IMG/VR virus record: IMGVR_UViG_3300029319_000143
Coordinates: 1-39,580 of that record
DNA from: a virus
DNA: 39,580 nt
Direction: 5' to 3' (one strand)
The position numbers and the translations under genes were made by a program. Positions within the stretch are counted from its first letter, which is position 1. Every line of letters starts with the position of its first letter. The notes beneath the pieces were generated by a model that did no database searches, was not told the origin of the DNA, and saw only the letters and a program-made list of their open reading frames with translations. This document shows, piece after piece, positions 3,563 to 19,014 of this stretch.

Positions 3563-4356
3563 AAGAATGACATCCCTTCATTAAATCCAAAGTCATCATC
3601 AGCAGTTACTAATGCGTCATCAGCAGCAGTAACTTGACCATCTTGGTTGATGTCTGTTTTTGCTTTGGGTGTGTAAGATAGTTCAACGTGTCTCTTATTG
3701 ACATTGGTATCACCAATAGTTTCAATAATACGAGACTTACGAATAACATCTGCCTTGGTGTAAGGACCGTAGATGTAAGACTTAGCAGTAAACTGCATTG
3801 TGTAGGTTATACTACGTCTTGTACTAAAGTCATCTTCCCAATCATCATCAAAGTCTACACTATTCAATACAACAGCAACATCTCTAACTTCATCCATATC
3901 AGGAATGAACTTTAAACTCATACTAAATGAGGGTTGAAAGAAAGGAAGTATCTGTTCTAATATTTGTAACCCATCATCTTGAGACTTACAAAGAATACCA
4001 ACTTCAAATGAAATATTGTATGGTACAGGTACATACTGAGTTCTTACTTCATTACCGTTATCATTAATAACAGTCTTATACTTCTGTGTGGCAGGTGTTT
4101 TTCTCGCAGCATCATAGTCAATACCAGTCATTTCAAAATAAATTCGTGGTAAAGTAATTGCTACTTTTCTACCATCAGTAGGGTTACCTTGTAGTCTATA
4201 CAAGAATTTTTGTTTAGGACCGTAGGCAAGAGGAACTTTCTCTGTCTCAATAACTTGACCATCAACTATTTTTTTAAGTTCAATGTTATTGAAAAGAGTA
4301 CCAAATGAGACAACAGTTTTTCTAACTGCTTGATTATAAAATTGTGTTCCTAACAT
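3559..4356 (-). CDS. 15: gp15-like tail sheath stabiliser / tail completion protein
   Basis: This 265-aa protein matches the T4 gp15 type, which caps the tail tube and sheath and joins the tail to the neck. Supporting features are its length (T4 gp15 is 272 aa), its N-terminal MLGTQFYNQAVRKTVVSFGT region and its location directly after gp14 with a shared TAATG overlap. The C-terminal ~30 residues contain DINQDGQVTAAD (residues 235-246), a 12-residue loop with the D-x-N-x-D-G-x-V-x-x-x-D spacing of dockerin/EF-hand calcium sites. It is followed by an acidic tail ending FNEGMSFL. That loop is not part of classical gp15 and may be an added calcium-binding element. Confidence 0.85.
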   Translation of the reverse strand: MLGTQFYNQAVRKTVVSFGTLFNNIELKKIVDGQVIETEKVPLAYGPKQKFLYRLQGNPTDGRKVAITLPRIYFEMTGIDYDAARKTPATQKYKTVINDNGNEVRTQYVPVPYNISFEVGILCKSQDDGLQILEQILPFFQPSFSMSLKFIPDMDEVRDVAVVLNSVDFDDDWEDDFSTRRSITYTMQFTAKSYIYGPYTKADVIRKSRIIETIGDTNVNKRHVELSYTPKAKTDINQDGQVTAADDALVTADDDFGFNEGMSFL

Positions 4357-5771
4357 CAGAAGCTACCTGTATAATTACCAAATTCACCAAATGGGTTTGT
4401 TTCTCCCCAATCAATTAAATCATCTGCACCTTGCTCAATTGCTTGGTTCTGATCATATTCAGTGCTTTGATTATCAATTGTAGAGAATGTCCCTAATGTA
4501 TATATGGCGTTAGATTCAACCCCTCTAATCATATCTCCATCAATAAAGTTACCTGTGCGGTTCATAACTTCAAGTGTATACGTCACGCCATTCCAGTCAG
4601 CAACTTCAGCAATCGTAGCACTCATTAGATCATATAGAATTGCTTGTCCACCACTTGTAGTAGTCTCTTCCCATGCATTGATGATGTATCTTACATTAGT
4701 AGAATCATAATAGAAGTAACCAGGTGTAGTAGTAGCAGTCGTTCCATTATATTGATAAACATAACAAATACGTTTATCTTCAAACTTCCAATAAAAATAT
4801 TTTTTCTGTGTAGTGGTAGCAAACACAGGATCAAAACCACCACTACCAGTTACAGTAATAACTTTATTAGATGAAGTCCATGTTCTTCCTGCACCTTGTG
4901 CAGTAAATCCACCTATAACTACATGTTCATCGTTAAGGAATTGAATTGGTTCTGGTGGTGCATCAATAATAACTGTTGGAGGATTTAGACCTGTTACATC
5001 ATATCCAGTACCACCACTGACAATCGTAAGAGTAACAACACCACCATCTAATATAGATGTTGTGATAATTCCTCCAGATCCATTACCTGCATTACCAATA
5101 GTAACATTTGGTGGAGTGTTATATCCTGTACCAGCGAGTGTTACAGTTGCTTGTGATATAGCACCACTAGAATCTACTTCAAGAGTTCCAGTTGCTGTTT
5201 GTCTAGTAGTAGGACTAAGATTTAATGTAGTAATATTACTAAACTGTCTTTCTACATCATCAATTTCATCAATACCTGTATCAAACTTATCAGCACCTTG
5301 CTCATATATCTCAGCAGTGAGTTGATAAAAATACTGTTTACCTAACTGAAAGAAAGGATTTTCTCTTTCTACATACTTAACTTCATAGAGATCTTCTGTC
5401 AATGGAAAATATATTAAGTCTCCCTCATTAGGTCTACCATCTACAGCAAGACTCAATGCAGGATTAGCAGACTGTTCCCATCTTCTTCTTGATACAACAA
5501 AGGTTATCTCATCAGTTATTCTTAAACCAAACTTACTTACAAACTCTGCACCTGCACCAAAACCTTCTACATTCACAAGGAACATCTCTATCATATAACT
5601 CTGATTAAACTCAGATTGTATAACTTCCCCTAACGTCTTATCTTTCAGATGCACTCTAGGAATATAAAACACATCAGATCCAAACAACTTGATTTGTTCA
5701 TCAACCAAGTCTTGTACAAGATTCTGTTCAGTGGCAACACCACCGTGTTGAGGAAAGTATACTTTTTTCAT
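4356..5771 (-). CDS. 14: gp14-like neck protein with a large insertion
   Basis: The first ~185 residues (MKKVYFPQHGGVATEQNLVQ...) and the C-terminal DLIDWGETNPFGEFG motif are typical of T4-like gp14, a neck protein that helps join the filled head to the tail. T4 gp14 is 256 aa; this protein is 471 aa. The extra length is mostly a region at about residues 190-440. It includes two beta-rich repeats with GTGY...PPxVxI signatures (about 212-225 and 253-269) and further beta-strand segments, and looks like a surface-exposed domain, perhaps a decoration or whisker-binding element. The gene overlaps gp13 by four bases and gp15 by one. Confidence 0.87.
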   Translation of the reverse strand: MKKVYFPQHGGVATEQNLVQDLVDEQIKLFGSDVFYIPRVHLKDKTLGEVIQSEFNQSYMIEMFLVNVEGFGAGAEFVSKFGLRITDEITFVVSRRRWEQSANPALSLAVDGRPNEGDLIYFPLTEDLYEVKYVERENPFFQLGKQYFYQLTAEIYEQGADKFDTGIDEIDDVERQFSNITTLNLSPTTRQTATGTLEVDSSGAISQATVTLAGTGYNTPPNVTIGNAGNGSGGIITTSILDGGVVTLTIVSGGTGYDVTGLNPPTVIIDAPPEPIQFLNDEHVVIGGFTAQGAGRTWTSSNKVITVTGSGGFDPVFATTTQKKYFYWKFEDKRICYVYQYNGTTATTTPGYFYYDSTNVRYIINAWEETTTSGGQAILYDLMSATIAEVADWNGVTYTLEVMNRTGNFIDGDMIRGVESNAIYTLGTFSTIDNQSTEYDQNQAIEQGADDLIDWGETNPFGEFGNYTGSF

Positions 5772-6574
5772 CCGATCATGTCAAATGGTGGTAATTCGTA
5801 TGTAGAGAATGACTTCTCTTCTATCTCTGCAATTTCTTTTTGAGCATCTTCAAAAATTTCTCTACCATTAATGGCAACTCCACCAGGAAGTTGGATGCCA
5901 TTAAACTTAATTAGGTTCTGACCCCACTGTCTTTTGATAAGGGCAGTAGCATATTTCTTTAAGAAGATGTCACTATAAACTTGAGTGTATGTATCAGGAT
6001 CTAATGCTCTATGACATTCAACAATGACATGTACATCTTCATCTAACATGTCCTTACCAACATCAATATAAAGTCTGTCTTGTCTCATGTTAAATCTAAA
6101 CTGAACAAAAGCACCATTGTTTAGAACCATATCCATAGTCTCCATCCAAGTCTTAACCATGTAATAGTTAAGAAAGTCTAGAGATCCTACAGCGTATAGA
6201 TCATTTAAAAATATCTGATACTCAATACCAAACAAATTATTTCTAATTGCGTTACTAGCAAGACCAAATACTTTAGTCACACCAACTACATCCGCAGGTA
6301 GTTCAAGGTATCTATCCCTGACTTCCCATTTTGTACCACTAGCTAGAGTAGTTGTTGTGTTCTGTGTTTCAAATTTTGTCTCATCAGCAGCAGTAAATAG
6401 ATGCTTCATATAAGCAAGTTCAGTGCCATCGTAGTGTCTCATACGATAATACTGAAGTGCATCGTCTATTGAATCCTCTATCTGATCATCGTCAACATTG
6501 ATCTCCAACACTGGAAAACCTAACTTTCTAAGACAGTAATCTTTTAGTTCAGCTCTACTGGCAGGTTCTGCCAT
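5768..6574 (-). CDS. 13: gp13-like neck protein
   Basis: This 268-aa protein fits T4 gp13 (309 aa), the neck component that works with gp14 to seal the packaged head before tail attachment. The N-terminal MAEPASRAELKDYCLRKLGF and following QIEDSIDDALQYYRMRHYDG segments are characteristic of the family in cyanophages. A hydrophilic, helical C-terminus ends PPFDMIG. It is the first gene after the oxygenase cassette and has its own late-promoter box 27 bases upstream. With gp14, gp15 and gp16 it forms a tightly overlapped unit, which makes the assignment firm. Confidence 0.9.
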   Translation of the reverse strand: MAEPASRAELKDYCLRKLGFPVLEINVDDDQIEDSIDDALQYYRMRHYDGTELAYMKHLFTAADETKFETQNTTTTLASGTKWEVRDRYLELPADVVGVTKVFGLASNAIRNNLFGIEYQIFLNDLYAVGSLDFLNYYMVKTWMETMDMVLNNGAFVQFRFNMRQDRLYIDVGKDMLDEDVHVIVECHRALDPDTYTQVYSDIFLKKYATALIKRQWGQNLIKFNGIQLPGGVAINGREIFEDAQKEIAEIEEKSFSTYELPPFDMIG

Positions 6575-6601: not shown

Positions 6602-6609
6602 TATTTATT
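6602..6609 (-). promoter_or_regulatory. Late promoter box AATAAATA (ahead of gp13)
   Basis: The minus strand reads AATAAATA 27 bases upstream of the gp13 ATG. It fits the NATAAATA cyanophage late motif and would allow gp13-gp16 to be transcribed separately from the oxygenase cassette. Confidence 0.6.
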
Positions 6610-6612
6610 CAT

Positions 6613-7251
6613 TTATTTCACCTCAACTCTTTTAAAATCTGATTCAAACATTACATTCAGACACCATCTTTGTTTATGATGTGGAGCACCAGTACCTCCA
6701 TGCAGTGTATTTGAAGGAAACATTATAGCATTTCCTTCTATTGATTCGTAAAAATATTCTCCATCGCCAGGTATAACAACTCTAGTACCATGCTCAGGTC
6801 CTGTACTATTAAGATAGTAAACAATGCTAGTATACTTAGTATCTTCTTCGGAATGATCTACATGAAGACTTCCATGAGAAGCAGAACTATAATAGTTCCA
6901 GAATATTCTGAATAAATGTGGAGAGTTATGTAAATAACCTGCCTTCTTTGCTCTCTTGATACAGATATTCATTACAAGTTTTGCAAACCCATTGAGTTCT
7001 GCGTAATACTCTTCCATTCTTACTGCTCTATTAGCATCAAAAGTTCTCTGAAGAAAACCTGCATCAGAAGTATAACAACATTTGCCTTCTAACACGCCAG
7101 GATATGTTGGATCATTTATAATATTACAATCTTCTCCACGATGATCATATGCAATCTCCCACCCATTGCTATGGCGTAGCATTTGAACTAAGTGAAAATT
7201 AATTTCTGGTGATAGTATATCAGTAAAAGATATCAACTCTCTTTTTTCCAT
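6613..7251 (-). CDS. 2OG-Fe(II) oxygenase, HxD type (cassette gene)
   Basis: This 212-aa protein has the 2-oxoglutarate/Fe(II) dioxygenase signature of a double-stranded beta-helix fold: HVD at residues 130-132, a distal histidine at 184 (NTLHGG) and an arginine at 195 (QRWCLNVMF) that would bind the 2OG carboxylate. The reaction would be oxygen-dependent hydroxylation of an unknown substrate. I take the start at 7251, where TGATG joins it to the preceding gene; an ATG at 7266 would add five residues and lengthen the overlap. It resembles prolyl-4-hydroxylase-like members that act on proteins or small molecules. It is the last gene of the cassette before gp13. Confidence 0.82.
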   Translation of the reverse strand: MEKRELISFTDILSPEINFHLVQMLRHSNGWEIAYDHRGEDCNIINDPTYPGVLEGKCCYTSDAGFLQRTFDANRAVRMEEYYAELNGFAKLVMNICIKRAKKAGYLHNSPHLFRIFWNYYSSASHGSLHVDHSEEDTKYTSIVYYLNSTGPEHGTRVVIPGDGEYFYESIEGNAIMFPSNTLHGGTGAPHHKQRWCLNVMFESDFKRVEVK

Positions 7252-7883
7252 CAAAATCCCCAACAAACAAATGAATATCTTTCTCCTTTGGTTACCTCTT
7301 GAACTCTATGAGGATAAAGATAACAACTAGGAAATATCAATATATCTCCTTTATCTAATTTTATTTCAAAGTCATCCCAAAACACTAAACCACCACCCTC
7401 ATAATCAGAATGATCATTCAAAGCACCTATGACTGATAGCACAGGTATTCCTCTCTTCTCTCCATCAAACAAAGATTGTATATGATCAAAGTGAGGTCTC
7501 ATCATAGTTCCCTCACTATACCTATTCAAACGTATACTAGACCAGAACTTGATCATGTTAAATGGATTTGCTTTTACTGCTTCTTGTCCTTGATATAAAT
7601 TTGTTCCTTGTTGATGTTGTAGTAATTCTGGCAACAACATCATATATGCTTTCCATACTTCAGAAATATGCATGATAAGTTGCTGCTGAACTACGTCTGG
7701 TATATTAGCACCATAAACAACATCCAATTCTTTTTGTTTGTGTGAATAAGACTGAACCTCATGATGAGAATACCATTCATGAGTTTGCCATTCCCATTTT
7801 TTTGATTTTTCTACAATACTATCACAAAGTTCTGGAGCAATAATATTATTTTTAGCAATAAGATTTCTTAATTGTACATCCAT
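7251..7883 (-). CDS. 2OG-Fe(II) oxygenase, prolyl-4-hydroxylase-like, HxD type
   Basis: This 210-aa protein shows a textbook P4H-type core: HFD at residues 131-133, a glycine-rich turn (YEGGGLVFWD), a distal histidine at 192 and an arginine at 202 in HRVQEVTKGERYSFVCW. It is the most canonical oxygenase of the cassette, and substrate hydroxylation of a peptide is the likely activity class. An in-frame ATG at 7913 would add ten residues but would overlap the upstream gene by 28 bases. The ATG at 7883, two bases after the upstream stop, is preferred. It is coupled to the next gene by TGATG. Confidence 0.85.
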   Translation of the reverse strand: MDVQLRNLIAKNNIIAPELCDSIVEKSKKWEWQTHEWYSHHEVQSYSHKQKELDVVYGANIPDVVQQQLIMHISEVWKAYMMLLPELLQHQQGTNLYQGQEAVKANPFNMIKFWSSIRLNRYSEGTMMRPHFDHIQSLFDGEKRGIPVLSVIGALNDHSDYEGGGLVFWDDFEIKLDKGDILIFPSCYLYPHRVQEVTKGERYSFVCWGF

Positions 7884-7885
7884 AA

Positions 7886-8416
7886 TTAAAGCACGGGTAA
7901 CATTCCTAAACAACCATTTCCTGGAAACAGATCTAATGATACATCAAATCCTATGGTCAATCTTGTATCTGAGAACTCATCTAAACAAACCACCCTATGT
8001 TCTCTTTGACCAGGACCAAAATATATCTGACCTACTTTGTTCTCAATTTTATAATCTCTAAACTCAGTAACAGTATTCTTTGGATCTATACTTATATATC
8101 CATGATAATCCCAGTCATGATTATGCCATCCAAGAACTTGATCCTGATCATGATAGTTTAACCATGATTGCATCCACATTTTTTTATTACCTAATTCAGA
8201 TTTGACAATTGATACAAGTTCTTTGTAAATTTCATAGAAGTTATAATGACCAGCAGTTAATGAAAATATATTATAGTTAAAATAATCTGCTGTCATGTCA
8301 CCAGTAGCATTTCTAGATGGTAATCTCATATACCATTTCTTAGCTAGATGACACTGTTTAACAATTTCTGATTGATGTTCTATAATATATTTTGATTGAT
8401 ATAATTTATAATCCAT
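7886..8416 (-). CDS. 2OG-Fe(II) oxygenase-like protein with HNH in place of HxD
   Basis: This 176-aa protein is of a cyanophage-type 2OG oxygenase family. It has LGWHNHDWDYHGYISIDP, a conserved GQIYFGPG turn, a distal histidine at 140 (QREHRVV) and an arginine at 152 (DTRLTIGFDV). At the place of the usual HxD the sequence is H98-N-H100 followed by D101 and D103, so the first metal carboxylate is either missing or supplied from another spot. It overlaps the preceding gene by 11 bases. The substrate is unknown. Confidence 0.75.
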   Translation of the reverse strand: MDYKLYQSKYIIEHQSEIVKQCHLAKKWYMRLPSRNATGDMTADYFNYNIFSLTAGHYNFYEIYKELVSIVKSELGNKKMWMQSWLNYHDQDQVLGWHNHDWDYHGYISIDPKNTVTEFRDYKIENKVGQIYFGPGQREHRVVCLDEFSDTRLTIGFDVSLDLFPGNGCLGMLPVL

Positions 8417-9104
8417 TTAATTTTATTTCATTGGATATAGACATTTCTACAGTTGTCATTTGTACATGAGATCCTTTCATCAATCCATTAATCATATTTG
8501 TATTCAAATTAATTAAATCAACATTGAATGCTATTGATATTCTTTCTACATCTGATTTTGATTTTGTAGTTCCATGTGATAACCATGAAGGAAACAATAT
8601 AATATCTCCGTCATAAGGAACAACCACAGTAAAAGATGGAAACACTTGACCAGATGGAAATTCACATGTATTGGATACTGGATTTGGATTTTGAAATACT
8701 ATAGACCCTTGTTCTCTACTTACTCTAAAGTAATATACACCAGAAATTTTATGTCCAGGATGAACGTGTTGCATTCTAGATTCATTTTTATTTCCAAAAT
8801 TAACCCATGAATTTTCTACCTTAATTGGAGACTTTGATCTATCATATTGACCACTCCAACGAGAACGCTGTAAATACGCAATACAAGATTCTTCTATTCT
8901 TTTCTTCAACAAATTACATTCATACTTTTCTAGAAAATCATATGTCTTCTTAACTTCTTCTCTGTCATTAAAAGATTTACAAGATTTATCATCAGTATCT
9001 TTTATTTTCTTAATTGCTTCTTGTATCTCACATTGAATATCATCATAAGATTCGTCCGCTGGATATCTTAAGACAGGAACAGAAAATAAATTATATAATT
9101 CCAT
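8406..9104 (-). CDS. 2OG-Fe(II) oxygenase-like protein, HxH type (2OG-FeII_Oxy_5-like)
   Basis: This 232-aa protein matches the family whose hallmark is SW.N...HVHPG...SGVYY. H113-V-H115 occupies the iron-motif position, with a distal histidine at 177 (FPSWLSHGT) and an arginine at 188 (DVERISIAFNVD). The N-terminal 90 residues are helical and begin MELYNLFSVPVLRYPADESY, also typical. The start at 9104 gives a TAATG overlap with the upstream gene; the longer frame from 9128 is less likely. It is clearly paralogous to the plus-strand gene at 10499-11185. Both share H.(I/V)xG(V/T)YY(F/M)RVS.EQG.I.FQNPN. Confidence 0.8.
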   Translation of the reverse strand: MELYNLFSVPVLRYPADESYDDIQCEIQEAIKKIKDTDDKSCKSFNDREEVKKTYDFLEKYECNLLKKRIEESCIAYLQRSRWSGQYDRSKSPIKVENSWVNFGNKNESRMQHVHPGHKISGVYYFRVSREQGSIVFQNPNPVSNTCEFPSGQVFPSFTVVVPYDGDIILFPSWLSHGTTKSKSDVERISIAFNVDLINLNTNMINGLMKGSHVQMTTVEMSISNEIKLNGL

Positions 9105-9808
9105 TACCAAAATTTCCTCATAGGACATTTGTTTTCTTTAACTATTTCCCAAGATTTACCTGGTAAAAAATTTTTTACACGAGCAAGGTTGTGAGATTTA
9201 ACTCTTAACTTATCTGGTGCATCTTTCCTTTCTAAAGAAAATGCAGTATCATAACTTCTAAATCTTACTATACCGATAGGTTCTCCTCTCAATATATTAG
9301 TTACTTCATTATTAAATCTACATGCAGATAATATCATTCGTGGCCAACGATTGAAAGGATATTCAGCACTAATTATTTCTATTCCTTTTTCAGCAAAACT
9401 TGGTGGAGATACAATCTCTACCCATATATCTTTAGTTTTTTCTTTTGACCAGAAAGTAAAATGTTGATGCATCTGTCCTACTAACACTTTATTGTAAGGA
9501 GTTGGAGGTTTCATTAATGTAGGTGGTGATTTACCCTCATCAACATTAATAAAATCATAACTCCATTGATCAACTACACCAGTATCTTTATCATACGTGA
9601 TAGTCATATCCATCTGTGAGAATATAACAAAAGCATTTTTCCAGTAATGTTTCCATGCAGGACATTTCCAGTAGGTATGCTTCTCGTGATATTCTTTATA
9701 GTATGAAAGATATGGTTGAATAGGAATATAAACTTCCTCTTCAAATAAAGGATGTTCCCAACCAAATTGATATCCCTCCATAAAGGGAGCATAATATATT
9801 TTTTTCAT
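9104..9808 (-). CDS. Unrecognised 234-aa protein inside the oxygenase cassette
   Basis: This protein lacks the oxygenase signature. It is rich in aromatic residues (many Trp, Tyr and His), starts MKKIYYAPFMEGYQFGWEHP and contains QMHQHFTFWSKEKTKDIWVE, PFNRWPRM and a basic C-terminus ending CPMRKFW. The first ATG follows directly on the upstream gene's stop (TGATG) and its own stop overlaps the next start (TAATG), so it is fully embedded in the operon. I do not recognise the family. Because it is co-transcribed with oxygenases, it may be a substrate-binding partner or a different step of the same modification. It could also be an unrelated passenger. Confidence 0.75.
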   Translation of the reverse strand: MKKIYYAPFMEGYQFGWEHPLFEEEVYIPIQPYLSYYKEYHEKHTYWKCPAWKHYWKNAFVIFSQMDMTITYDKDTGVVDQWSYDFINVDEGKSPPTLMKPPTPYNKVLVGQMHQHFTFWSKEKTKDIWVEIVSPPSFAEKGIEIISAEYPFNRWPRMILSACRFNNEVTNILRGEPIGIVRFRSYDTAFSLERKDAPDKLRVKSHNLARVKNFLPGKSWEIVKENKCPMRKFW

Positions 9809-10467
9809 CAGTAAACATTCTCAATTAATCCAAAGGATGTACTAGCAGGTGAAGAAGTCAGTCCAACAGGCATGACATTTATACTAATTGTCATTCTAAT
9901 TCCTTCAAAAGTAGTTGGCATTGTAAAATGTTCTAACCAAGACGGAAACAATATCAAAGTTCCAGTCTCAGAGGGACACTGCCATACATTTTGTGACAAC
10001 TTACTTTCACTTTGAACAACAATACCATGTCTAGAATGTGGTAAAGGTGTATCAAAATAAGTTGGAGGAGTGTTTGGTGTACAGTAATAAATACCAGAGA
10101 GCCATGAATTTGGATGAACATGTGGTCTATGTTCATTCATTTTTGGAGAAATATTTGCCCAAGATAAATTAACTCTTAGTCCCTCAGTGTTTAATCTATA
10201 CGTTTGGTAATAATTTTCAAGACAAGCATTGACCCAATCATAAAAAAATGCATACTCCTCTTTTTCATGTAGATGAGTATTCATTGTTTGAAGTGGATGT
10301 AAACTTTGTCCTTCCTTATTCTTTATTCCTTGAGGACCTGATGTTTCTTCTTGATCAATCAGTTCCATTAATTTAGAATTCATGCTAAGATATTTCTCAT
10401 TACGATACATGGTTACCGTAACAGGGAATATATCAATTTCATTTACAAGAGTATTCTCTAGCATCAT
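9808..10467 (-). CDS. 2OG-Fe(II) oxygenase-like protein, HxH type (2OG-FeII_Oxy_5-like)
   Basis: This 219-aa protein of the same broad family has LSWANISPKMNEHRPHVHP (H116-V-H118), then WLSGIYYCTPNTPPTYFDTP, a distal histidine at 180 (FPSWLEHFT) and an arginine at 191 (GIRMTISINV). As in its paralogues, HxH replaces HxD. It has two adjacent ATGs at 10467 and 10464. An AATAAATA late box lies 18 bases upstream, making it the first gene of the leftward cassette unit. The first ATG points away from the plus-strand paralogue, which starts 31 bases to the right. Confidence 0.8.
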   Translation of the reverse strand: MMLENTLVNEIDIFPVTVTMYRNEKYLSMNSKLMELIDQEETSGPQGIKNKEGQSLHPLQTMNTHLHEKEEYAFFYDWVNACLENYYQTYRLNTEGLRVNLSWANISPKMNEHRPHVHPNSWLSGIYYCTPNTPPTYFDTPLPHSRHGIVVQSESKLSQNVWQCPSETGTLILFPSWLEHFTMPTTFEGIRMTISINVMPVGLTSSPASTSFGLIENVY

Positions 10468-10485
10468 ATAACTTCGTCATACTAC

Positions 10486-10493
10486 TATTTATT
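10486..10493 (-). promoter_or_regulatory. Late promoter box AATAAATA between divergent oxygenase genes
   Basis: In the 31-base gap between the divergent genes, the minus strand reads AATAAATA 18 bases before the 10467 ATG. On the plus strand only a weak TTACAA-18-TATAAC pair (10443-10472) is seen for the rightward gene, so regulation of the latter is unclear. Confidence 0.5.
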
Positions 10494-10498
10494 ATACC

Positions 10499-11185
10499 AT
10501 GTCAAGTCTTATAAGTCTATTCCCAACACAAGTTTTTAGAAGTCAAGCAACTAATGAAAACTACGATTTAGTTCAAAGAGAAGTAAAGGAATGTCTCAAT
10601 AAAATATTAGAGACTGATAACTTTGATGATGTCTCATGGATTCATGAGGAAGCTGGTAAGAGAAGAGCTGCAAGAAACGCATATTTTGATATACATGAAT
10701 ATCTTATAGATGAAGATCTTATAGGAAATTATAATTTAGTAAATTTAAAAAAGAGAATATTTGATGCTGCTAAACAATATGTTGAATTGACACAATGGAG
10801 TAGAGCATTCTCACACAGAAAAGTAACTGAAGGACAAGAGAGATATATACTTCATTTAAAAAATTCATGGATGAATATACAAAGTAAATTCAAATCACAT
10901 GAATGGCATTGTCATCCTGGTTATCATATAGCTGGCACTTACTATATGAGGGTTAGTCCTGAACAAGGTGGGATACAATTTCAGAATCCAAATATAATGA
11001 TGCAACATTGCAATTTTCCAGAAAACCCAAGGAACTCTCAATCTATTGAATTTGTTCCTAGTGATGGAGACATCATGTTGTTTCCAGCTTGGTTGATGCA
11101 CAATACAATGGCAAATACAACAGATGTAGATAGAATTAGTATATCATTCAACCTTGATATAGAACTTCCTATGGATCAAACTTAG
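10499..11185 (+). CDS. 2OG-Fe(II) oxygenase-like protein, HxH type, only plus-strand gene
   Basis: This 228-aa protein is paralogous to the 8406-9104 product. A helical N-terminus begins MSSLISLFPTQVFRSQATNE. It has NSWMNIQ, then HEWHCHPGYHIAGTYYMRV with H137-C-H139 in the iron-motif position, a distal histidine at 201 (FPAWLMHNT) and an arginine at 212 (VDRISISFNLD). The predicted activity is 2OG-dependent oxidation, if the HxH centre is functional. The gene is inverted relative to every other gene in the window. It diverges from 9808-10467 and converges with 11169-11831, overlapping it by 17 bases. No Shine-Dalgarno sequence is obvious. The inversion suggests it was duplicated or inserted separately. 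Confidence 0.82.
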   Translation: MSSLISLFPTQVFRSQATNENYDLVQREVKECLNKILETDNFDDVSWIHEEAGKRRAARNAYFDIHEYLIDEDLIGNYNLVNLKKRIFDAAKQYVELTQWSRAFSHRKVTEGQERYILHLKNSWMNIQSKFKSHEWHCHPGYHIAGTYYMRVSPEQGGIQFQNPNIMMQHCNFPENPRNSQSIEFVPSDGDIMLFPAWLMHNTMANTTDVDRISISFNLDIELPMDQT

Positions 11186-11831
11186 GTGATTCATAATCAG
11201 GAAGTCCTCTTAGTTTTCTTAACTCACTATTTGCAGAACATTCACTCAAACAATAACTAATTGCCAGACTAGTCCTTAGTCCTTCTGTTGGATGTAAAGC
11301 AGCATGAAAATAATATGATGGAAATAAGATAAGTCTGCCTGGTTTAAATTTAACTCTATAAACTTCTTGGAAAGATGTGTCCTCACCATCGGGACCTATA
11401 GGATCACTGTAGAATAATGTGTCTCCATCTTTACCTCCAACATAATAAATCATAGTCCAGTAGTCAGGCATCTCCCAATCTAAATGAATTGGTATTGCAA
11501 CATCCATTGGCACTTGACCATTAAAATGAACCCGATACAATTGATTTGCATATGCATCAGGTATAAAAGTTTGTAAAATATGTTTAGTAAATGCATCATG
11601 AACATATGATGCTATGCCATCTACATCTAAAGCAAATGGATCCTCTGTTTGTTCATGTGGTCTATGTACCCATATAGCAAAGAATCTTCCATCTTTACTA
11701 CCTCCTTTTCTCCCTTGAATACCATACTCCCACCTTTTACAATCGTTTAATTTCTTAGAAAAAGATTGTACGAGATAATCTGGAAAGACATCATCGTACA
11801 CGAAGATCTTTGAAGTATCAATTTGTTTCAT
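11169..11831 (-). CDS. 2OG-Fe(II) oxygenase, prolyl-4-hydroxylase-like, HxD type
   Basis: This 220-aa protein has the P4H-like core IHLDWE (H116-L-D118), a substrate-loop region with YYVGGKDGDTLFYSDP, a distal histidine at 176 (SYYFHAALHPTEG) and an arginine at 186 (GLRTSLAISY). All residues for iron and 2OG binding are present. It lies 17 bases downstream of the probable fibre-assembly gene and runs convergently into the plus-strand oxygenase. The context next to tail-fibre genes makes modification of fibre proteins or of a host-surface component a reasonable but unproven guess. Confidence 0.83.
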   Translation of the reverse strand: MKQIDTSKIFVYDDVFPDYLVQSFSKKLNDCKRWEYGIQGRKGGSKDGRFFAIWVHRPHEQTEDPFALDVDGIASYVHDAFTKHILQTFIPDAYANQLYRVHFNGQVPMDVAIPIHLDWEMPDYWTMIYYVGGKDGDTLFYSDPIGPDGEDTSFQEVYRVKFKPGRLILFPSYYFHAALHPTEGLRTSLAISYCLSECSANSELRKLRGLPDYESPKFDP

Positions 11832-11848: not shown

Positions 11849-12334
11849 TTAGGGATTTGCGTCTTTGATTGCCTTAACTGCTTTATACCAAGTACCAGTT
11901 TTATCTAACTTACCATCATCAATATCATGCCATAGTTGATCTACCTGTTCTTGCCAAGATGGATACTCTCTTTTTCTTTTTGAAGCATAAGTATCATACT
12001 CAGCTTTCATATCATCCCATTCTGCTTTAATCTCAGCCCATGTAGGAGCAGTCCATCCTCTTGCTGTAATCTCAGCAGCAGTAAAGTTTCCATTTTTATA
12101 AAAACCTGTAACAGGATCAAATACTTTTTCTGCGTCAGTTACACTAGGTCTGTTATCAGTGTATCTAACTGACTCTAAGTATTGCTGTTCATTCTCGCAT
12201 GAAAAAGATCCACTAAATTCAATCTGACCTGTCATACCTTGATCGTCAATGATTCCTTGTAGTGCATGACCTGACTCTGGTGCTCTGAGCACATCGTATC
12301 TTAGATCTTTTTGAAATTCTCTTAAACCAGCCAT
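11849..12334 (-). CDS. Probable tail fibre accessory/assembly protein, 161 aa
   Basis: This 161-aa protein ends with the module YPSWQEQVDQLWHDIDDGKL followed by a short helical tail ending KAIKDANP. This motif (EYPS..EQ.D.LWH.id) is widespread at the C-terminus of small phage proteins encoded next to tail fibres. The middle contains ITARGWTAPTWAEIKAEWDD. Residues 1-60 include a beta-rich region. It sits directly downstream of three adhesin-like genes with its own TATAAATA late box. The role is inferred from motif and position: either a fibre chaperone or a small baseplate/fibre component. Confidence 0.65.
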   Translation of the reverse strand: MAGLREFQKDLRYDVLRAPESGHALQGIIDDQGMTGQIEFSGSFSCENEQQYLESVRYTDNRPSVTDAEKVFDPVTGFYKNGNFTAAEITARGWTAPTWAEIKAEWDDMKAEYDTYASKRKREYPSWQEQVDQLWHDIDDGKLDKTGTWYKAVKAIKDANP

Positions 12335-12368: not shown

Positions 12369-12938
12369 TTAATATCTACTAAGATTACCAGACTCTACAC
12401 ATCCAGAATCAATTTCAAAGATTTCAAGGAAATTATTTTCCCATCCACCATTACGAGTCATGTTACCAATACGACAGTTTACACGAGCAGGACCTGACCA
12501 GTTTGCATGATATATTCTAAATCTATGTTCTTCATTTGGATATGATGGATGAACAGGACAGAGGTTATAGTAATTATCCATCCAATAAAAATCACCCACG
12601 TTATTTTCTAGTGTAGCATGGTGTCCTTGGTCTGCAACTCTACCCCATCCAGAACTAGGTGTCCAACGATATAGTGCAGCACCTGTTCCTTGAGCACCAC
12701 CACCTTGGTCATCACAGATAGTTTGATATCTTACTTGATACCAGTTAGATGCCTTAGCAGGAACTCCCATACTAACCTCAGCACCAGAGTATTGCCACTG
12801 TGGTCCAAAACCATTACCAGCACTAAAATCATTAGATGGTGATGATGTTATACCAACTTTTACGATTCCTTCTGGTTGTCTTTGAGGATTAGAATCACCA
12901 GGAAGTAATATTCCATTAGGACCAAGAGTTACTGCCAT
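12369..12938 (-). CDS. Adhesin-like structural protein, copy 1 of three tandem paralogues (189 aa)
   Basis: Closely related to the next two proteins. All share MGVP.K(A/S)(S)NxY..., DD/DQ.G...GxALYRxTPSSGW, QGxHA, GDFY, VHPSYPNExHxFR and a GGWENNF(L/S)...E(I/V) C-terminal core. Composition is rich in Gly, Trp, Tyr and Asn, as in surface-exposed carbohydrate-binding or fibre-tip domains. No signal peptide or membrane segment. This copy ends CVESGNLSRY. No known domain was identified. The most likely role is a tail-fibre tip or baseplate-attached receptor-binding protein, inferred from location and fold type. Confidence 0.7.
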   Translation of the reverse strand: MAVTLGPNGILLPGDSNPQRQPEGIVKVGITSSPSNDFSAGNGFGPQWQYSGAEVSMGVPAKASNWYQVRYQTICDDQGGGAQGTGAALYRWTPSSGWGRVADQGHHATLENNVGDFYWMDNYYNLCPVHPSYPNEEHRFRIYHANWSGPARVNCRIGNMTRNGGWENNFLEIFEIDSGCVESGNLSRY

Positions 12939-12942
12939 TTTT

Positions 12943-13512
12943 CTAGTAAGTAGTTAAGTTATTAATTGCTGCCACATTATCACAATCAACCTCTGTAACA
13001 GAGAACTGATTATTTATCCATCCACCGATACGATTATCAGCACCGATACCAGAATTTACACGAATGTTGCAACTAGGATGTTTAGTGCCCATTAATTTGA
13101 ATATATGTGTTTCAGTTGGATATGATGGATGAACTGGTATATACCAAAGTCCAACAGGAGTAGCATAGAAGTCACCAGAGTCATTATCATAGTTTGCATG
13201 TTGACCTTGAGCCTGTGCTCTTAACCAACCTGAAGATGGTGTATAACGATAGAGTGCCAATCCCATACCGCCATTACCAGAACCTGGCCAATCATCAGTG
13301 ACGTTATAATATTCACAACGATACCAATTATTTGATTTTTGTGGTACACCCATATCTATATTTGGCGAAACATCAGTCTCACCACCCCAAGTTGGCAAAC
13401 TTAAATTTACCGTTGGGTGTGAGGTGTATCTAGTTTTAACCAAAGGTGATTTGGTAAACTGATTACTTCCATCGGTATATTCAATATTAGTTCCGTTTAA
13501 TTTAGTTGCCAT
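12943..13512 (-). CDS. Adhesin-like structural protein, copy 2 of three tandem paralogues (189 aa)
   Basis: The second copy begins MATKLNGTNIEYTDGSNQFT and carries the shared core: MGVPQKSNNWYRCEYY, GMGLALYRYTPSSGWLRAQA, GQHANYDNDSGDFYATP, VHPSYPTETHIFKLMGTKHP and RIGGWINNQFSVTEVDCD. The N-terminal ~45 residues differ from the other copies, consistent with attachment or specificity differences. It lies four bases from copy 1. The spacing and co-orientation suggest a single translated unit producing three related proteins. Confidence 0.7.
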   Translation of the reverse strand: MATKLNGTNIEYTDGSNQFTKSPLVKTRYTSHPTVNLSLPTWGGETDVSPNIDMGVPQKSNNWYRCEYYNVTDDWPGSGNGGMGLALYRYTPSSGWLRAQAQGQHANYDNDSGDFYATPVGLWYIPVHPSYPTETHIFKLMGTKHPSCNIRVNSGIGADNRIGGWINNQFSVTEVDCDNVAAINNLTTY

Positions 13513-13521
13513 TTGTTTTTC

Positions 13522-14133
13522 CTAAAAGTTTGGATTATAGTTTCCAGTTGTAGTAACAATTTGACGATTGATTTCCCAAACTTCAAATGTGTTGTTCTGC
13601 CATCCATTACGACGTTGATCGCCACCAATAGATGAGTTAAATCTAACAGTTCCAACATTATGTTTGTTCCAATACAGTCTGAAGTAATGTGCTTCATTTG
13701 GATATGATGGATGAACTTGAACCCAAAATATACCATTATTGGTTCTATACCAATCACCCATATTATTATCATAAGATGAATGACTTCCCTGTGCTAGTAA
13801 TCTACTCCAACCAGAAGAAGAAGTATAACGCCAAATTTGAAATCCTATACCAGATATATTACCGTCATTATCATCACTAACTGATTGATACCAAATCCGA
13901 TATAAATTATTGGATGCTTTTGGCACTCCCATATTTATCTCAGATCCATCAACATAACCCTCAGATCCAGTACCACCACTAGCACTTTGATTAACTGTTG
14001 AGCAAGATCCAAAACCTACTTTCACAACCGCAGCCGCACGACCTTGGTATGTGTTGTCGTTAGTCTCATTACCATTCTGGTTATAGACAGGTCCACCAAA
14101 ATGGATCCCATCTCCTCTTAATTCGGTTGCCAT
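13522..14133 (-). CDS. Adhesin-like structural protein, copy 3 of three tandem paralogues (203 aa)
   Basis: This is the first-transcribed copy and slightly longer. It begins MATELRGDGIHFGGPVYNQN and contains MGVPKASNNLYRIWYQ, GFQIWRYTSSSGWSRL, QGSHSSYDNNMGDWYRT, VHPSYPNEAHYFRLYWNKHN and RRNGWQNNTFEVWEINR. The N-terminus includes an extra ~15-residue stretch not seen in the other copies. Its ATG directly follows the stop of the 1626-aa fibre, which suggests that the three small proteins may cap or decorate that fibre. That link is an inference. Confidence 0.7.
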   Translation of the reverse strand: MATELRGDGIHFGGPVYNQNGNETNDNTYQGRAAAVVKVGFGSCSTVNQSASGGTGSEGYVDGSEINMGVPKASNNLYRIWYQSVSDDNDGNISGIGFQIWRYTSSSGWSRLLAQGSHSSYDNNMGDWYRTNNGIFWVQVHPSYPNEAHYFRLYWNKHNVGTVRFNSSIGGDQRRNGWQNNTFEVWEINRQIVTTTGNYNPNF

Positions 14134-17100
14134 TTACTTTCCTTTAAGTTGATCAATTTCACTCTTAAGATCCTTAATTGCTTCAATTAGAACACCAACG
14201 ATATTCTGATAAGCAACAGACTTAATACCATTATCATCTGTATGGACTAAGCATGGGAACTCTTGCTCAATTTCTTCAGCAACAACACCCATATTATGTG
14301 TTCCATTTGATTTATAATCCCATTCCACACCACGTAGATTCAAGACCCTTGCAAGAGCATCTGGGATAGTCTCAATGTTATCCTTGAGAGCCATAGCAGA
14401 CTGTGCTGTGACAGTTCCAACGACTGTTAGGTTATTAGAGGTATCAAAGGTTGCACAGTTTGTTCCACCAGTCTGTACTGTTATGTTAGATCCAGAAGCT
14501 ACGGAAACATTTGAGTTACCATTCTGAATTGAGGTAGCATCTACGTTCAATGTTGCCCACTGAACTCCACTAGCAGTACTCTGTAAATACTGACCACTTG
14601 AACCAGTACCACCACCAGCAGTTAGTGATCCTGTTAAGATAGCACTAGATAGTGTTTTGTTTGTAAGAGTTGAAGCTGAATCTTCAGTTACAATTCCACC
14701 ACCACTACCAATTGTTGTTCCAAGAACTTGTGTAGCACTTAGAACTTCAACTCCATTAATCTTGAATACCTTACCAGATGGAAGGTTGATATGCTCACTA
14801 ACATCAAATCCGTTAGAAGCACCCCAAGCAATTGTCTTGTCGGTAGCACCCTTAACTGTAATACCACCTCCAGCTGCGGTAGCATCTGTAGCACCACCAG
14901 CAGTGAAGCTAGCAGCAGTAGCAGATCCAGTTCCACCGAATGACGCATCAAGTGTAGCAGTTGTTCCTGTTAAACCAGTAACTGATACAGTTCCTGAAAG
15001 TGTTACTGTACCACTACCACCTGAGATAGCAACTACAACGCCAGGAGCAATATTTGTTGTATCACTGATGTTTGTAATCTGATTTGAACCAGATGAAATA
15101 TCACCAGTAAATGTTCCACTAGCAACTTTACCAAGAATTATGTTTCTGTCTTTAGTTTCTATGTCTACAGATGAAATTGTAGATGTAGAACCTTTAACAG
15201 TTAAGTTACCACCAATATCAAAGTTACCAGCAACAGCAGATAGGTTGTCAACATATGTCTTAACCGCTTTCTGTGTAGGAACTTTAACGTCACTATTTTG
15301 AGTTAAAAGACCATCTGTTGAGAATTCGTTAATTGCAGCACCTAACTGAGCACCGATTGAACCAAGTCTCAAACTGGATAGACCAGATAAGTCAAACGCA
15401 GAAGCGTCTAGAGTCGCCTTACCAGTCGCCTGGTTGACCTTGAAGTACTGTCCAACAGCAAAGTTACCATCTTGGTCGGTAGAGACGTAATAAACACGAC
15501 CTGGACGTGTCTCATCAATCTCCTGTGAAGGAACATTTGGTGAGAGTGGAAGATATGGCCAGTTTGTATTTGCTTTACTTCCAGTACCAACGTCTAGGAA
15601 GTCATGAGCAGTTAGACGAACCTGTGAATATCTGTAACGAATCTTGAATGATTGTCCATCTGTACATCCGATTGTCTTCTCATCAGCAAACTGAAGAATT
15701 GTAAGACCTGTAGTATCAGTAGCAACAGCTGAAATCTTCATGAACTCACTGCCTATCTTGATATAGTCATTAGCACCGAAACCAACATTAGATTTCTCAA
15801 CACGAATGCTTGTAGCACCTGAGTTGATATCTTGAATTATCTTATCCTGAGAAGCAACCTTTGCGGCCAAAATAGTAATTGTTGTACCAGAGTTATGAGT
15901 TCCAGCAGTTGTTCCTTCTTGAGCACGTGCTGCTGTAACAGATGTTGCTGATGGGAATGATTGAATCTTGAATAACTCGTTATTAATAACAAGGAATCCA
16001 TTAATTGTCATTCCTGTAACAGCGTCCACGTTCATTGTGAACGGTGAAGAAGCACCTGCTGCTATGTTAGTTTGTAGAGCAGCAGTATTACCTGCAGCTT
16101 CAAAGAACTCAATGTTTGAATGTCCATCATGTGAAGCAGCACTACTTCCTAACTGTGCTCTTGTTACTGTTAATGCACCTCTACCATCTGGTGCTGTGTA
16201 ACTAGAGTTAGAGATAACATATGATCCAGAGTCATTGTTGATACCATCATCAACTAACTCAACAGAACCACCCTGATCAGGACCTGTTGTAAGTCCAGCT
16301 GCTATCAAGATGAATCCTGATTGACCTCTCACAGCGTCTGTGTTGTTAACAAGAGTTGCTGTAGCACTTGATGTAGCACCTGTAATTAATTCACCCTGTG
16401 CAAAGGTTCCTTTACGTGGAATAAAGTAAATTTTATTTGCACTAGCTGACTGATCACTTCTTAATTCACCAATCGCATTTGATGTACCACCTGTGATAAT
16501 TTCTCCTGTTGAGAATGTACCACTCTTCGCACCTTGTGGATCAGTAGTAAGCATTAAACCTGCAACAGTACCATTCTTAGTAGCTTCGTTGACATCAAAT
16601 CCTCTAGAAATACAACCGTACTTACCATAAGAAGAGTTACCAGATACAGCACGAATTCTAGCACCGCCAGTGGAGGTGTAAGAAATATGTGCATAGTATG
16701 TGAAACAAGATACAATTTCAGCAGCAGATGTTCCTTCACACCAGAAACCAACACCACCTTCTAGAACCTGTGTAAATGCGTCAAACACCATTGACTTGTA
16801 TGATGGTGTCGCAGAGTTATCAAAGTGTCTGTGTGCTCCACCATCAATGATTACACCAACAGCAGCACCACCGAAAGCAGAACAGTTCTGGATATATGGT
16901 GACTTAGTAATTGGGATAGCAGGATCAAGTCTAAAGTAAACACCCTTGACTGTGGCAGCTGTCATATCCTTATCGTTAGTCGCATCAGGAACAAATCCTG
17001 TCATGCCTTCTAACACAAAGTCTTTAACAATGTTATGTGTTGCACAGAAGAACATTGTAGACTCACTGTTGATAATATCAGCAGCAGCACTAATAGTTTT

Positions 17101-19014
17101 ATATCCATTAGTGCTTGTAGCACCACTCATATTACCGTTACTAATTGCTGTAGTAACAATACCAACTAATGTTGTATGAGCAGATTGAACTTGAGCACAC
17201 TTAGGAGTGCTATCTGCTGTACCAGTAAACATTGTCTGACTGAAGTTGTTACCAGCAGACTTAGTAACTGCAATATTTTGAATAATCTCAAGACCAACAG
17301 AATCAATGTAGTTGAATAATTGAGTATCCTGAGTGCTGTTACCAGTGATAGCAGTACCACCAACTAATGCCTGAGCATAATCATAAACTTTATTGTTACC
17401 ACCATGCTTAAGGTTATAAGCAATTTGTTCAATAGCAGATTCTAAACGACTCTTTACAGTTGCTTCTGTACCACTCACAGCACCTTGGTTTGCAACGTGA
17501 CGATGATATGCTTCATTAGCAAGGAAAGTCTTGTTGTCAATCATCAAATTACGAGCGTCAGCATGACTATTGCTGATGATATCAACATACTGGTCGCTAG
17601 TAGTCCATGCTCCACCACTTACACTGAGAATTGTGACTACAGTTTTAGCAGCATTTATATCAAGAAGTTTACCAGTCTTAGTGCCATCAGCACTACTAAT
17701 TGTTTCACCTAACTGGAAAGATGTTAATGCAGTAGTAAGAGTTAAATCTTGTTCGTTTGAATTACCAGCAGCAGGTTTAACAATTGTGTTTCTAATATTG
17801 TCACCAATAATTGAAACGTATGCAGGAATATGAATTGGAAGAACTTCCGAATAAACACCTGCTTTTACATAAACAGTAACTGGATTTGTAGCAGATGGTT
17901 TCTCAGCTCCTGTAAGTGCTGATATATACGCCATCGCATGACGTATTGTTAAGAATGAACGTGAAAGATTCTTACCATTATTACTATCATCACCAGTTTC
18001 AGTAACATAGTAAACACTAGTAGTAGCGTTGTTTGTTTCCCATCTTGGAAGAAGTGGAGAACCACCAACTGTTAGAACCTGACCACTTGCTTCTCTTTGT
18101 TGAGCAGCAGTACCAGTTGATCCAGCTGGAAGAGAAATTCTGTTAATACCAGAAGCAGCCTGATAAAGTAAGTCACCAGTATCTTGAAGAACCTGTGCAG
18201 CATTACCACCTTGTGCAATATAATTCCAGTAGTTTCCGTTTGGATCTAATTCTGGAGCATTAGCTGCACCAGTTGTATCAGTGGTTATACAAATATAAGT
18301 ATTTGAGTTTCTATTTACAACATCACCTTTTTGATAGACTGTTGAAGAACTCCAAGCACCTAACCAGTTAAATCCTTCTGCTAGTAAACTCCAATATGTA
18401 GTATCTGTTGGTTGATTACCAGTTGATGTCGCTATACATGCATAACTATATCCACCAAATCTAACAACATCACCTGGAACATATTTTGTACCAGAAGCGT
18501 ATTCACCTTTAGCAATAAAACCAGTTGATAATACACTCCAGTTTCCAGCATCTTCGTTTGGAGTTGTGATAGAAGAGTGATCTCCTTTTGCAACATAACT
18601 GTAACCACCGTAGGATATTATGTCACCTTTTTGATAATTTGTTGAAGCGACCCAAGAATCTTCATACTTTAAACCTTCTACGTAGATGTTGAAATTGGCA
18701 GGAAGTATATCAGCACCAGATGTATGTCCAATAGTACAAATAAATTGAGTGTTACCATACTTGACAACATCGTTTATTTTATACCAGTAACTAGTTACCC
18801 AGTCTCCTTTATTAACTATTCCTTCTGTATGTAAACTCCACTTAGTTAAATCAGCTGAATAAAATTGTACTTCAGAACTTGCTGATGTATGGTTAGTCGT
18901 ACACACATAAGTGTTACCACCGTACTTGACGATATCGTCAATGACGTAAGCTGTTGAAACGGCCCAATCGCCTTTCCAATTAAACTTCAGTCTGCCGAGT
19001 CTAAAATCTGCCAT
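14134..19014 (-). CDS. Large tail fibre (1626 aa) with CBM5/12-like modules and S74-like chaperone
   Basis: Residues 1-270 contain five ~50-residue modules of the form W....Y..(G/D)D.V.YGG..Y.C...H, resembling chitin-binding CBM5/12 modules. Residues ~330-600 include a right-handed beta-helix-like region that starts YYVTETGDDSNNGKN and contains VYVKAGVYSEVLPIHIPAYV. A later block holds RPGRVYYVSTDQDGNFAVGQ and NSDVKVPTQKAVKTYVD, also found in the 866-aa protein. The C-terminal ~88 residues look like a peptidase S74/intramolecular chaperone: S1539-AMAL-K1544, DNIETIPDALARVLNLRGVE, and the helical end IGVLIEAIKDLK-type coil. The S-to-K spacing of the catalytic dyad is kept but the usual D and R between them are Ala. 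It should trimerise and bind the host surface. Functions are inferred. Confidence 0.82.
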   Translation of the reverse strand: MADFRLGRLKFNWKGDWAVSTAYVIDDIVKYGGNTYVCTTNHTSASSEVQFYSADLTKWSLHTEGIVNKGDWVTSYWYKINDVVKYGNTQFICTIGHTSGADILPANFNIYVEGLKYEDSWVASTNYQKGDIISYGGYSYVAKGDHSSITTPNEDAGNWSVLSTGFIAKGEYASGTKYVPGDVVRFGGYSYACIATSTGNQPTDTTYWSLLAEGFNWLGAWSSSTVYQKGDVVNRNSNTYICITTDTTGAANAPELDPNGNYWNYIAQGGNAAQVLQDTGDLLYQAASGINRISLPAGSTGTAAQQREASGQVLTVGGSPLLPRWETNNATTSVYYVTETGDDSNNGKNLSRSFLTIRHAMAYISALTGAEKPSATNPVTVYVKAGVYSEVLPIHIPAYVSIIGDNIRNTIVKPAAGNSNEQDLTLTTALTSFQLGETISSADGTKTGKLLDINAAKTVVTILSVSGGAWTTSDQYVDIISNSHADARNLMIDNKTFLANEAYHRHVANQGAVSGTEATVKSRLESAIEQIAYNLKHGGNNKVYDYAQALVGGTAITGNSTQDTQLFNYIDSVGLEIIQNIAVTKSAGNNFSQTMFTGTADSTPKCAQVQSAHTTLVGIVTTAISNGNMSGATSTNGYKTISAAADIINSESTMFFCATHNIVKDFVLEGMTGFVPDATNDKDMTAATVKGVYFRLDPAIPITKSPYIQNCSAFGGAAVGVIIDGGAHRHFDNSATPSYKSMVFDAFTQVLEGGVGFWCEGTSAAEIVSCFTYYAHISYTSTGGARIRAVSGNSSYGKYGCISRGFDVNEATKNGTVAGLMLTTDPQGAKSGTFSTGEIITGGTSNAIGELRSDQSASANKIYFIPRKGTFAQGELITGATSSATATLVNNTDAVRGQSGFILIAAGLTTGPDQGGSVELVDDGINNDSGSYVISNSSYTAPDGRGALTVTRAQLGSSAASHDGHSNIEFFEAAGNTAALQTNIAAGASSPFTMNVDAVTGMTINGFLVINNELFKIQSFPSATSVTAARAQEGTTAGTHNSGTTITILAAKVASQDKIIQDINSGATSIRVEKSNVGFGANDYIKIGSEFMKISAVATDTTGLTILQFADEKTIGCTDGQSFKIRYRYSQVRLTAHDFLDVGTGSKANTNWPYLPLSPNVPSQEIDETRPGRVYYVSTDQDGNFAVGQYFKVNQATGKATLDASAFDLSGLSSLRLGSIGAQLGAAINEFSTDGLLTQNSDVKVPTQKAVKTYVDNLSAVAGNFDIGGNLTVKGSTSTISSVDIETKDRNIILGKVASGTFTGDISSGSNQITNISDTTNIAPGVVVAISGGSGTVTLSGTVSVTGLTGTTATLDASFGGTGSATAASFTAGGATDATAAGGGITVKGATDKTIAWGASNGFDVSEHINLPSGKVFKINGVEVLSATQVLGTTIGSGGGIVTEDSASTLTNKTLSSAILTGSLTAGGGTGSSGQYLQSTASGVQWATLNVDATSIQNGNSNVSVASGSNITVQTGGTNCATFDTSNNLTVVGTVTAQSAMALKDNIETIPDALARVLNLRGVEWDYKSNGTHNMGVVAEEIEQEFPCLVHTDDNGIKSVAYQNIVGVLIEAIKDLKSEIDQLKGK

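Follow-up and report, generated by a model that had tools for sequence, protein, structure and literature searches.

The 39,580-nucleotide viral sequence IMGVR_UViG_3300029319_000143 of IMG/VR (the window, i.e. the entire stretch analysed) carries at positions 6613–11831 a cassette of seven genes belonging, by motif and profile, to the Fe(II)/2-oxoglutarate (2OG) oxygenase superfamily, together with one gene for a partner protein. The cassette appears to represent a coherent and seemingly new set tied to one family of adhesin-like proteins encoded next to it, and no description of such an adhesin-linked oxygenase set was found in the literature searched; 2OG clusters as such are not new, gene types and clustering both being already known. 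Tentatively, the late oxidation of fibre-tip adhesins is favoured as the role of the cassette, which would tailor the receptor-binding apparatus with the adhesins as presumed substrate. A cyanophage may carry as many as two dozen 2OG oxygenases, and the fixed link between oxygenases and adhesins provides a testable candidate substrate in cultured phages (P-SSM3, S-ShM2). If the proposal is true, enzymatic modification of attachment proteins joins the known ways by which phages diversify host recognition.

Conservation of the cassette with an adhesin module

The window represents a fragment of a T4-like cyanophage, as judged from the gp13–gp16 gene order and a PTOX-like gene; a megablast search of a collection of 50,697 phage records retrieved no match to the locus, i.e. 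no near DNA relative there. Eight intact, contiguous open reading frames (ORFs; named here by their lower coordinate) with overlaps or short gaps, such as the stop-start overlap TGATG at 7253–7249, make up the cassette, seven of them on the minus strand and one on the plus strand (10499–11185). They agree with a previous sequence-only reading, in which seven oxygenase homologues, six in one orientation, and one unrecognised gene had been placed between fibre/adhesin genes and gp13: all seven display 2OG motifs, 10499 is the plus-strand one, the gene for the gp13 neck protein (head-tail adaptor, phrog_211; 5768–6574, minus strand) forms the cassette boundary, and fibre/adhesin genes lie above 11849. 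The latter comprise gene 11849 (11849–12334; phrog_1787/8886/9114), three tandem genes for phrog_8195 proteins (12369–12938, 12943–13512 and 13522–14133), for which "adhesin" is used as a working name, and, adjoining these on the upstream side, the gene for a long tail fibre protein (phrog_9851; 14134–19014), all on the minus strand.

The full eight-gene order, including the inverted gene, recurs in IMG/VR contigs of L006, L007, L008 and L009 (L numbers are our own handles) and, where these contigs reach, the same long fibre, three tandem phrog_8195 genes and gene 11849 are found upstream. Ratios of nonsynonymous to synonymous substitution (dN/dS) of 0.07–0.30 relative to L009 indicate purifying selection on all eight cassette genes; because of this selection and the repetition of the full order in four other contigs, the cassette is not attributable to chance or assembly noise. 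Variants in which one gene is lost and another gained occur in L010 and L159. A scan for phrog_8195 relatives yielded, together with the window, 14 distinct contigs readable past 11849, in all of which a 2OG gene directly follows the phrog_8195 triplet and 11849, the latter always being located between adhesins and cassette. Eight of these 14 stem from two lineages far from the window (L161/L163/L164/L165/L166 and L168/L169/L170). Reciprocal best hits (29–72 % identity) were obtained in L161, L164 and L165 for all 12 genes, i.e. eight of the cassette and four of the adhesin module, with most of the cassette inverted relative to the window; no gp13 homologue was detected on these three contigs, and the cassette of L165 neighbours a fibre gene and a tail sheath gene. 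L168 and L170, with a gp13 about 50 % identical, retain a core of 11169, 10499, 9104, the adhesins and 11849. The dedicated system suggested by the sequence-only reading is supported by this co-conservation of the set with one adhesin module in three lineages, including inverted order, and by a late-promoter-like motif preceding the operon (see below).

By synonymous divergence of gp13, L012 (pS 0.48) is nearer to the window than L160 (0.82); L012 is devoid of adhesins and cassette, while L160 possesses both. Synonymous divergence of cassette and adhesins in the L167 pair is below that of gp13; since other flanking genes are low too, no block-exchange boundary can be drawn and the pattern amounts to a hint. 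Of 42 gp13 loci for which 5 kb or more of upstream sequence is available, 11 were found to contain one or more 2OG genes upstream and one the full cassette.

Close orthologues of 10499 (43–50 % identity; next match 28 %) were detected in 14 of the 50,697 phage records, namely of P-SSM3 (2), S-RIM14 (9), S-ShM2 (2) and S-SSM2 (1), and these 14 records, with no others, also contain phrog_8195 homologues. In 12 of them (S-ShM2/S-RIM14/S-SSM2 group), there is no linkage between the two genes: in the 179.6-kb record of S-ShM2 the adhesin is located at 43.4 kb and the 10499 orthologue at 165.0 kb. Their distance is about 120 kb within the record and would still be no less than 58 kb in a circularly permuted genome; positions in S-RIM14 are alike. 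In P-SSM3, they are about 3 kb apart, and likewise in all five further P-SSM3-like contigs with enough flank. Owing to the few independent lineages and the kinship of P-SSM3 and S-ShM2, this co-occurrence is regarded as suggestive, not conclusive.

Late-promoter-like motif and predicted adhesin structure

Late promoters of T4-type phages and cyanophages have the heptamer ATAAATA as their core. It occurs 17 times on the coding (minus) strand of the window and once on the other strand, eight of the 17 sites preceding a start by no more than 60 nt (binomial p about 1e-6). As the total number in the window shows no excess over shuffled expectation, support derives from strand bias and position rather than from abundance. 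One site (10486–10492, minus strand) falls within the divergent gap of 31 nt and precedes the start of the operon by 19 nt, and ATAAATA is present in the corresponding gap of all nine relatives examined (L006–L010, L159, L101, L168 and L170). These sites suggest that operon 10467–6613 may be under late-promoter-like control. Throughout the block of virion genes, ATAAATA sites likewise mark what are probably late promoters, gp13 having its own at 6602–6608.

An AlphaFold2 model of the 12369 product (predicted local distance difference test, pLDDT, 71) displays a beta jelly roll, the best PDB matches of which are tumour necrosis factor (TNF)-like lectins (Photorhabdus PLTL, Burkholderia BC2L-C) and TNF ligands; the central spike knob of phi812 is also among the PDB matches listed. 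The model suggests that the phrog_8195 protein could constitute a trimeric, probably glycan-binding fibre tip.

The seven oxygenases

Profiles recover the double-stranded beta-helix domain of the superfamily, Pfam matches above cut-off being obtained for 7251, 8406, 9808 and 10499. PF13759-type enzymes are encoded by 9808 (9808–10467, minus strand), the first gene of the operon, by 8406 (8406–9128, minus strand) and by the inverted 10499, which is convergent with 11169. The NCBIfam TIGR02466 cut-off of 62.5 bits is exceeded by 8406 (72.7) and 10499 (90.5); 9808 (59.0) is 3.5 bits below it, yet above the cut-off of PF13759. The phrog_2696 protein 7886 (7886–8416, minus strand) is a distant homologue with no Pfam match, its profile matching the PF13759 set at 91.6 % (E 8e-7). 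Gene 7251 (7251–7913, minus strand; 2OG-FeII_Oxy_3, PF13640) encodes a protein that aligns to PiuC/YbiX PKHD-type hydroxylases (PDB 9ghl, 9qn1, 3dkq) in the catalytic half only (E about 1e-6) and scores 51 bits, far under the 143-bit NCBIfam equivalog cut-off; the catalytic half is alike, whereas the context is different, and a literature search on PiuC returned nothing. The phrog_274-type proteins 6613 (6613–7266, minus strand) and 11169 (11169–11831, minus strand) match phrog_274 plus phrog_81/phrog_61, and their profiles match each other (hhalign 97.6 %, E 3e-12). As start codons, the listed TTG triplets at 7266 and 7913 are probably wrong; ATG codons near 7251 and 7883, respectively, fit better.

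Family alignments revealed H-x-D...H...R to be invariant in relatives of 6613 and 11169, and 7251 carries HFD...H...R. In the four others (7886, 8406, 9808 and 10499), the canonical H-x-D/E is replaced by H-x-H, and a metal carboxylate is therefore not evident there. H-x-H...H is invariant across the alignment of the PF13759 set (H-x-H...H...R in 8406) and WHxH...H...R in that of the 7886 family; two solved, uncharacterised relatives of 8406 (PDB 3bvc and 2rg4) likewise possess H-x-H. The metal-site histidines are invariant in all four family alignments made, and an arginine is located 10–12 residues past the distal histidine in all seven window proteins, being invariant in the families of 6613, 7886 and 11169. 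An AlkB-type repair function was considered and found unsupported, 6613 matching the AlkB model with an E of 0.02 and 15 bits against a cut-off of 231 bits.

The partner protein

The product of 9104 (9104–9808, minus strand; phrog_17480-like) had no sequence match in Pfam, NCBIfam or PDB. Its AlphaFold2 model (pLDDT 88) shows moderate resemblance to a dUTPase-like beta-clip fold (Foldseek against PDB and BFVD), and every PDB match listed is either a dUTPase or a dCTP deaminase (best E 4e-4; template modelling score about 0.3–0.6). Profile searches, which the sequence-only reading had proposed, gave no match to dUTPase families in Pfam and NCBIfam. A single weak alignment with E. coli Dut, not taken as evidence by itself, spans the region of motifs 3–4; among 37 partner relatives, D-x-D-Y-x-G is absent where aligned with Dut motif 3, and by inspection there is no Gly-rich C-terminal motif. 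The predicted fold resembles that of the dUTPase superfamily, whereas 9104 does not retain the catalytic Asp and the Gly-rich signatures. We infer that the partner serves in binding or as a scaffold next to an oxygenase. Two other candidates were rejected: the partner as a further 2OG enzyme (hhalign 0.1 %), and kinship with the protein beside the halogenases in L142/L143, to which there is just a weak match of 30 residues.

Partner relatives turned up in phages only at the sensitivity used, and one scan of genome contigs with a single peptide pattern revealed no cellular homologues. At every viral-contig partner locus scanned, a 2OG-like gene is adjacent or one small gene away. This does not extend to a general rule, which is broken by S-CAM3, where the nearest 4 kb or so around the partner gene are free of 2OG genes. 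The unknown partner originally noted is kept with the set; its family is not tied to fibres and pairs with 2OG genes elsewhere. In many cyanophage contigs (L106–L134, e.g. L110:6581-9583), the order 2OG, partner, partner, small Cys-rich gene, 2OG is found between nrdAB and talC, the two tandem partner copies being diverged. Further relatives adjoin sugar genes in S-T4 and L136–L141. Two fibre-adjacent loci (L142:2689-11143 and L143:3801-12421) combine one or two tryptophan halogenases (PF04820) with several 2OG, DUF6445-like and partner-family genes.

Proposed function and alternative explanations

Late in infection, the enzymes would hydroxylate side chains on the fibre-tip adhesins, or on the adjoining fibre, by means of Fe(II), O2 and 2-oxoglutarate, each oxygenase possibly having a residue or subunit to itself. 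As a substrate-binding or scaffolding subunit, the partner would bring a neighbouring oxygenase to its target. The modification would serve to adjust folding, the stability of the trimer or the binding of the receptor. The whole block may be swapped between phages as one host-recognition module. A wider and more doubtful extension is that receptor-binding proteins are inherited with their own multi-enzyme oxidative modification system, hydroxylation providing a layer of adhesin diversification.

Adhesin oxidation is favoured by the invariable succession of triplet and 2OG gene in the 14 contigs, the 12-gene reciprocal best hits, the matching sets of 14 records for 10499 and adhesin, the P-SSM3-like contigs, the contrast between L012 and L160, the ATAAATA bias, the lectin-like model, and the interleaving of 2OG genes with tail assembly chaperone genes in S-PM2 and S-RSM4 (see below). 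Several observations weigh against it. None of the cassette oxygenases has a close homologue with known substrate, the adhesin model is of just moderate confidence (pLDDT 71), and 31 of the 42 gp13 loci surveyed are devoid of an upstream 2OG gene. Members of the partner family accompany 2OG genes well away from fibres, too (nrdAB-talC and sugar-gene regions); the partner is missing from the otherwise similar cassette of L159 and occurs alone in S-CAM3. P-SSM3 and S-ShM2 are mutually nearest among the isolates compared (gp13 62 %, gp15 65 %), and their common co-occurrence may therefore be one event. Moreover, the linkage is largely physical, so that block exchange could account for part of it.

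The main rival reading, considered less likely, is that the enzymes tailor a small molecule or surface glycan instead. The target would be host lipopolysaccharide or capsule, or else a metabolite made by the phage, and one purpose could be a receptor change blocking re-adsorption; the adhesin link would then reflect a match of adhesin to receptor chemistry. The predicted lectin adhesins would indeed bind glycans, and partner and 2OG relatives are located beside nucleotide-sugar and heptose genes in S-T4 and L136–L141 and beside the tryptophan halogenases of L142/L143; a cluster in S-SSM6a was read as glycan decoration or secondary metabolism (PMC7824862). However, the window's cassette and its neighbours, which are virion genes, yielded no sugar gene and none for a halogenase or carbamoyltransferase when scanned, a late-promoter-like site precedes the operon, and the clusters of S-RSM4 and S-PM2 adjoin fibre and tail-chaperone genes.

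It is improbable that 2OG genes of unrelated function simply accumulate where the fibre locus is hypervariable, hitch-hiking with the adhesins and sharing no common pathway. 2OG genes are common and scattered in cyanophages (PMC9602691, PMC9964418), cassette content turns over (L010, L159, L015 and L016), and most gp13 loci (31/42) lack them; yet the same eight families form reciprocal best hits in rearranged order in a diverged lineage, all eight genes are under purifying selection, and 10499 and adhesin co-occur unlinked in the S-ShM2 group. An auxiliary metabolic role, which Sullivan et al. 2010 (PMC3037559) put forward for the 2OG genes of cyanophages and in which 2-oxoglutarate drawdown shifts host nitrogen signalling (NtcA) or succinate supply, or AlkB-like DNA repair, for which a role in Syn9 has been reviewed (PMC2984593), is very improbable, since a mere 2OG sink needs no seven diverged enzymes kept as a set beside adhesins, late-promoter-like control is ill-suited to early metabolism, and the AlkB score of 6613 is weak (15 vs 231 bits).

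Comparison with known 2OG clusters

According to genome papers, cyanophages usually possess 1–5 2OG genes each, with 10 in S-CREM1 (PMC3037559, PMC9602691, PMC9964418); S-SCSM1 harbours 24 genome-wide (PMC9602691). The density of oxygenase genes, initially noted as unusual, is so only in part, in view of S-SCSM1, a cluster in S-PM2 and S-RSM4, where about nine 2OG-like ORFs (SRSM4_132 to SRSM4_142; 6.3 kb) occupy the same site between fibre genes and gp13. Unlike the window, S-RSM4 has another gene set with three weak reciprocal best hits only, no partner homologue in its genome and no phrog_8195 homologue that could be found. The 2OG cluster of S-PM2 follows gp12 and a second one of S-RSM4 lies beside a virion gene; in both of these clusters, 2OG genes alternate with genes annotated as chaperones of tail assembly, next to fibre or virion genes.

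P-SSM3 (PRAG_00162 to PRAG_00175) resembles the window in that a phrog_8195 adhesin gene and an 11849-like gene are flanked by 2OG genes, the 10499 orthologue being 50 % identical; it differs in that the adhesin is single rather than triple, the 2OG genes number three as against seven, a partner is absent and gp13 is not adjacent. Iyer et al. 2021 described a 10-gene S-SSM6a cluster with 2OG enzymes, a halogenase and carbamoyltransferases (PMC7824862). Clusters of this type share with the window the grouping of several phage 2OG oxygenases with other modifying enzymes, whereas no halogenase, carbamoyltransferase, methylase or phosphatase was detected among the window genes scanned (cassette and neighbours rather than every ORF), and the window's cassette sits among late virion genes.

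SRSM4_132, 138 and 139, S-PM2p230 and PHROGs 274, 2297 and 3531 resemble 2OG oxygenases (HxD...H...R or profile match). Labels attached to such hidden 2OG genes include "DNA endonuclease V", "DNA endonuclease" and "ferrochelatase", and public annotation, as judged from motifs and profiles, probably undercounts the 2OG genes of cyanophages. The S-RSM4 cluster also contains a Cys-rich protein of 233 aa (SRSM4_134; L004:8705-9406), possibly an iron-sulphur protein.

Outside the cassette region, the window carries at 98–601 the alternative oxidase (PTOX-like) gene, which is typical of the cyanophage gp16–gp17 region. The gp14 encoded at 4356–5771 comprises 471 aa, compared with 293-aa homologues in other contigs, and its internal stretch ~167–308 weakly resembles baseplate wedge proteins.

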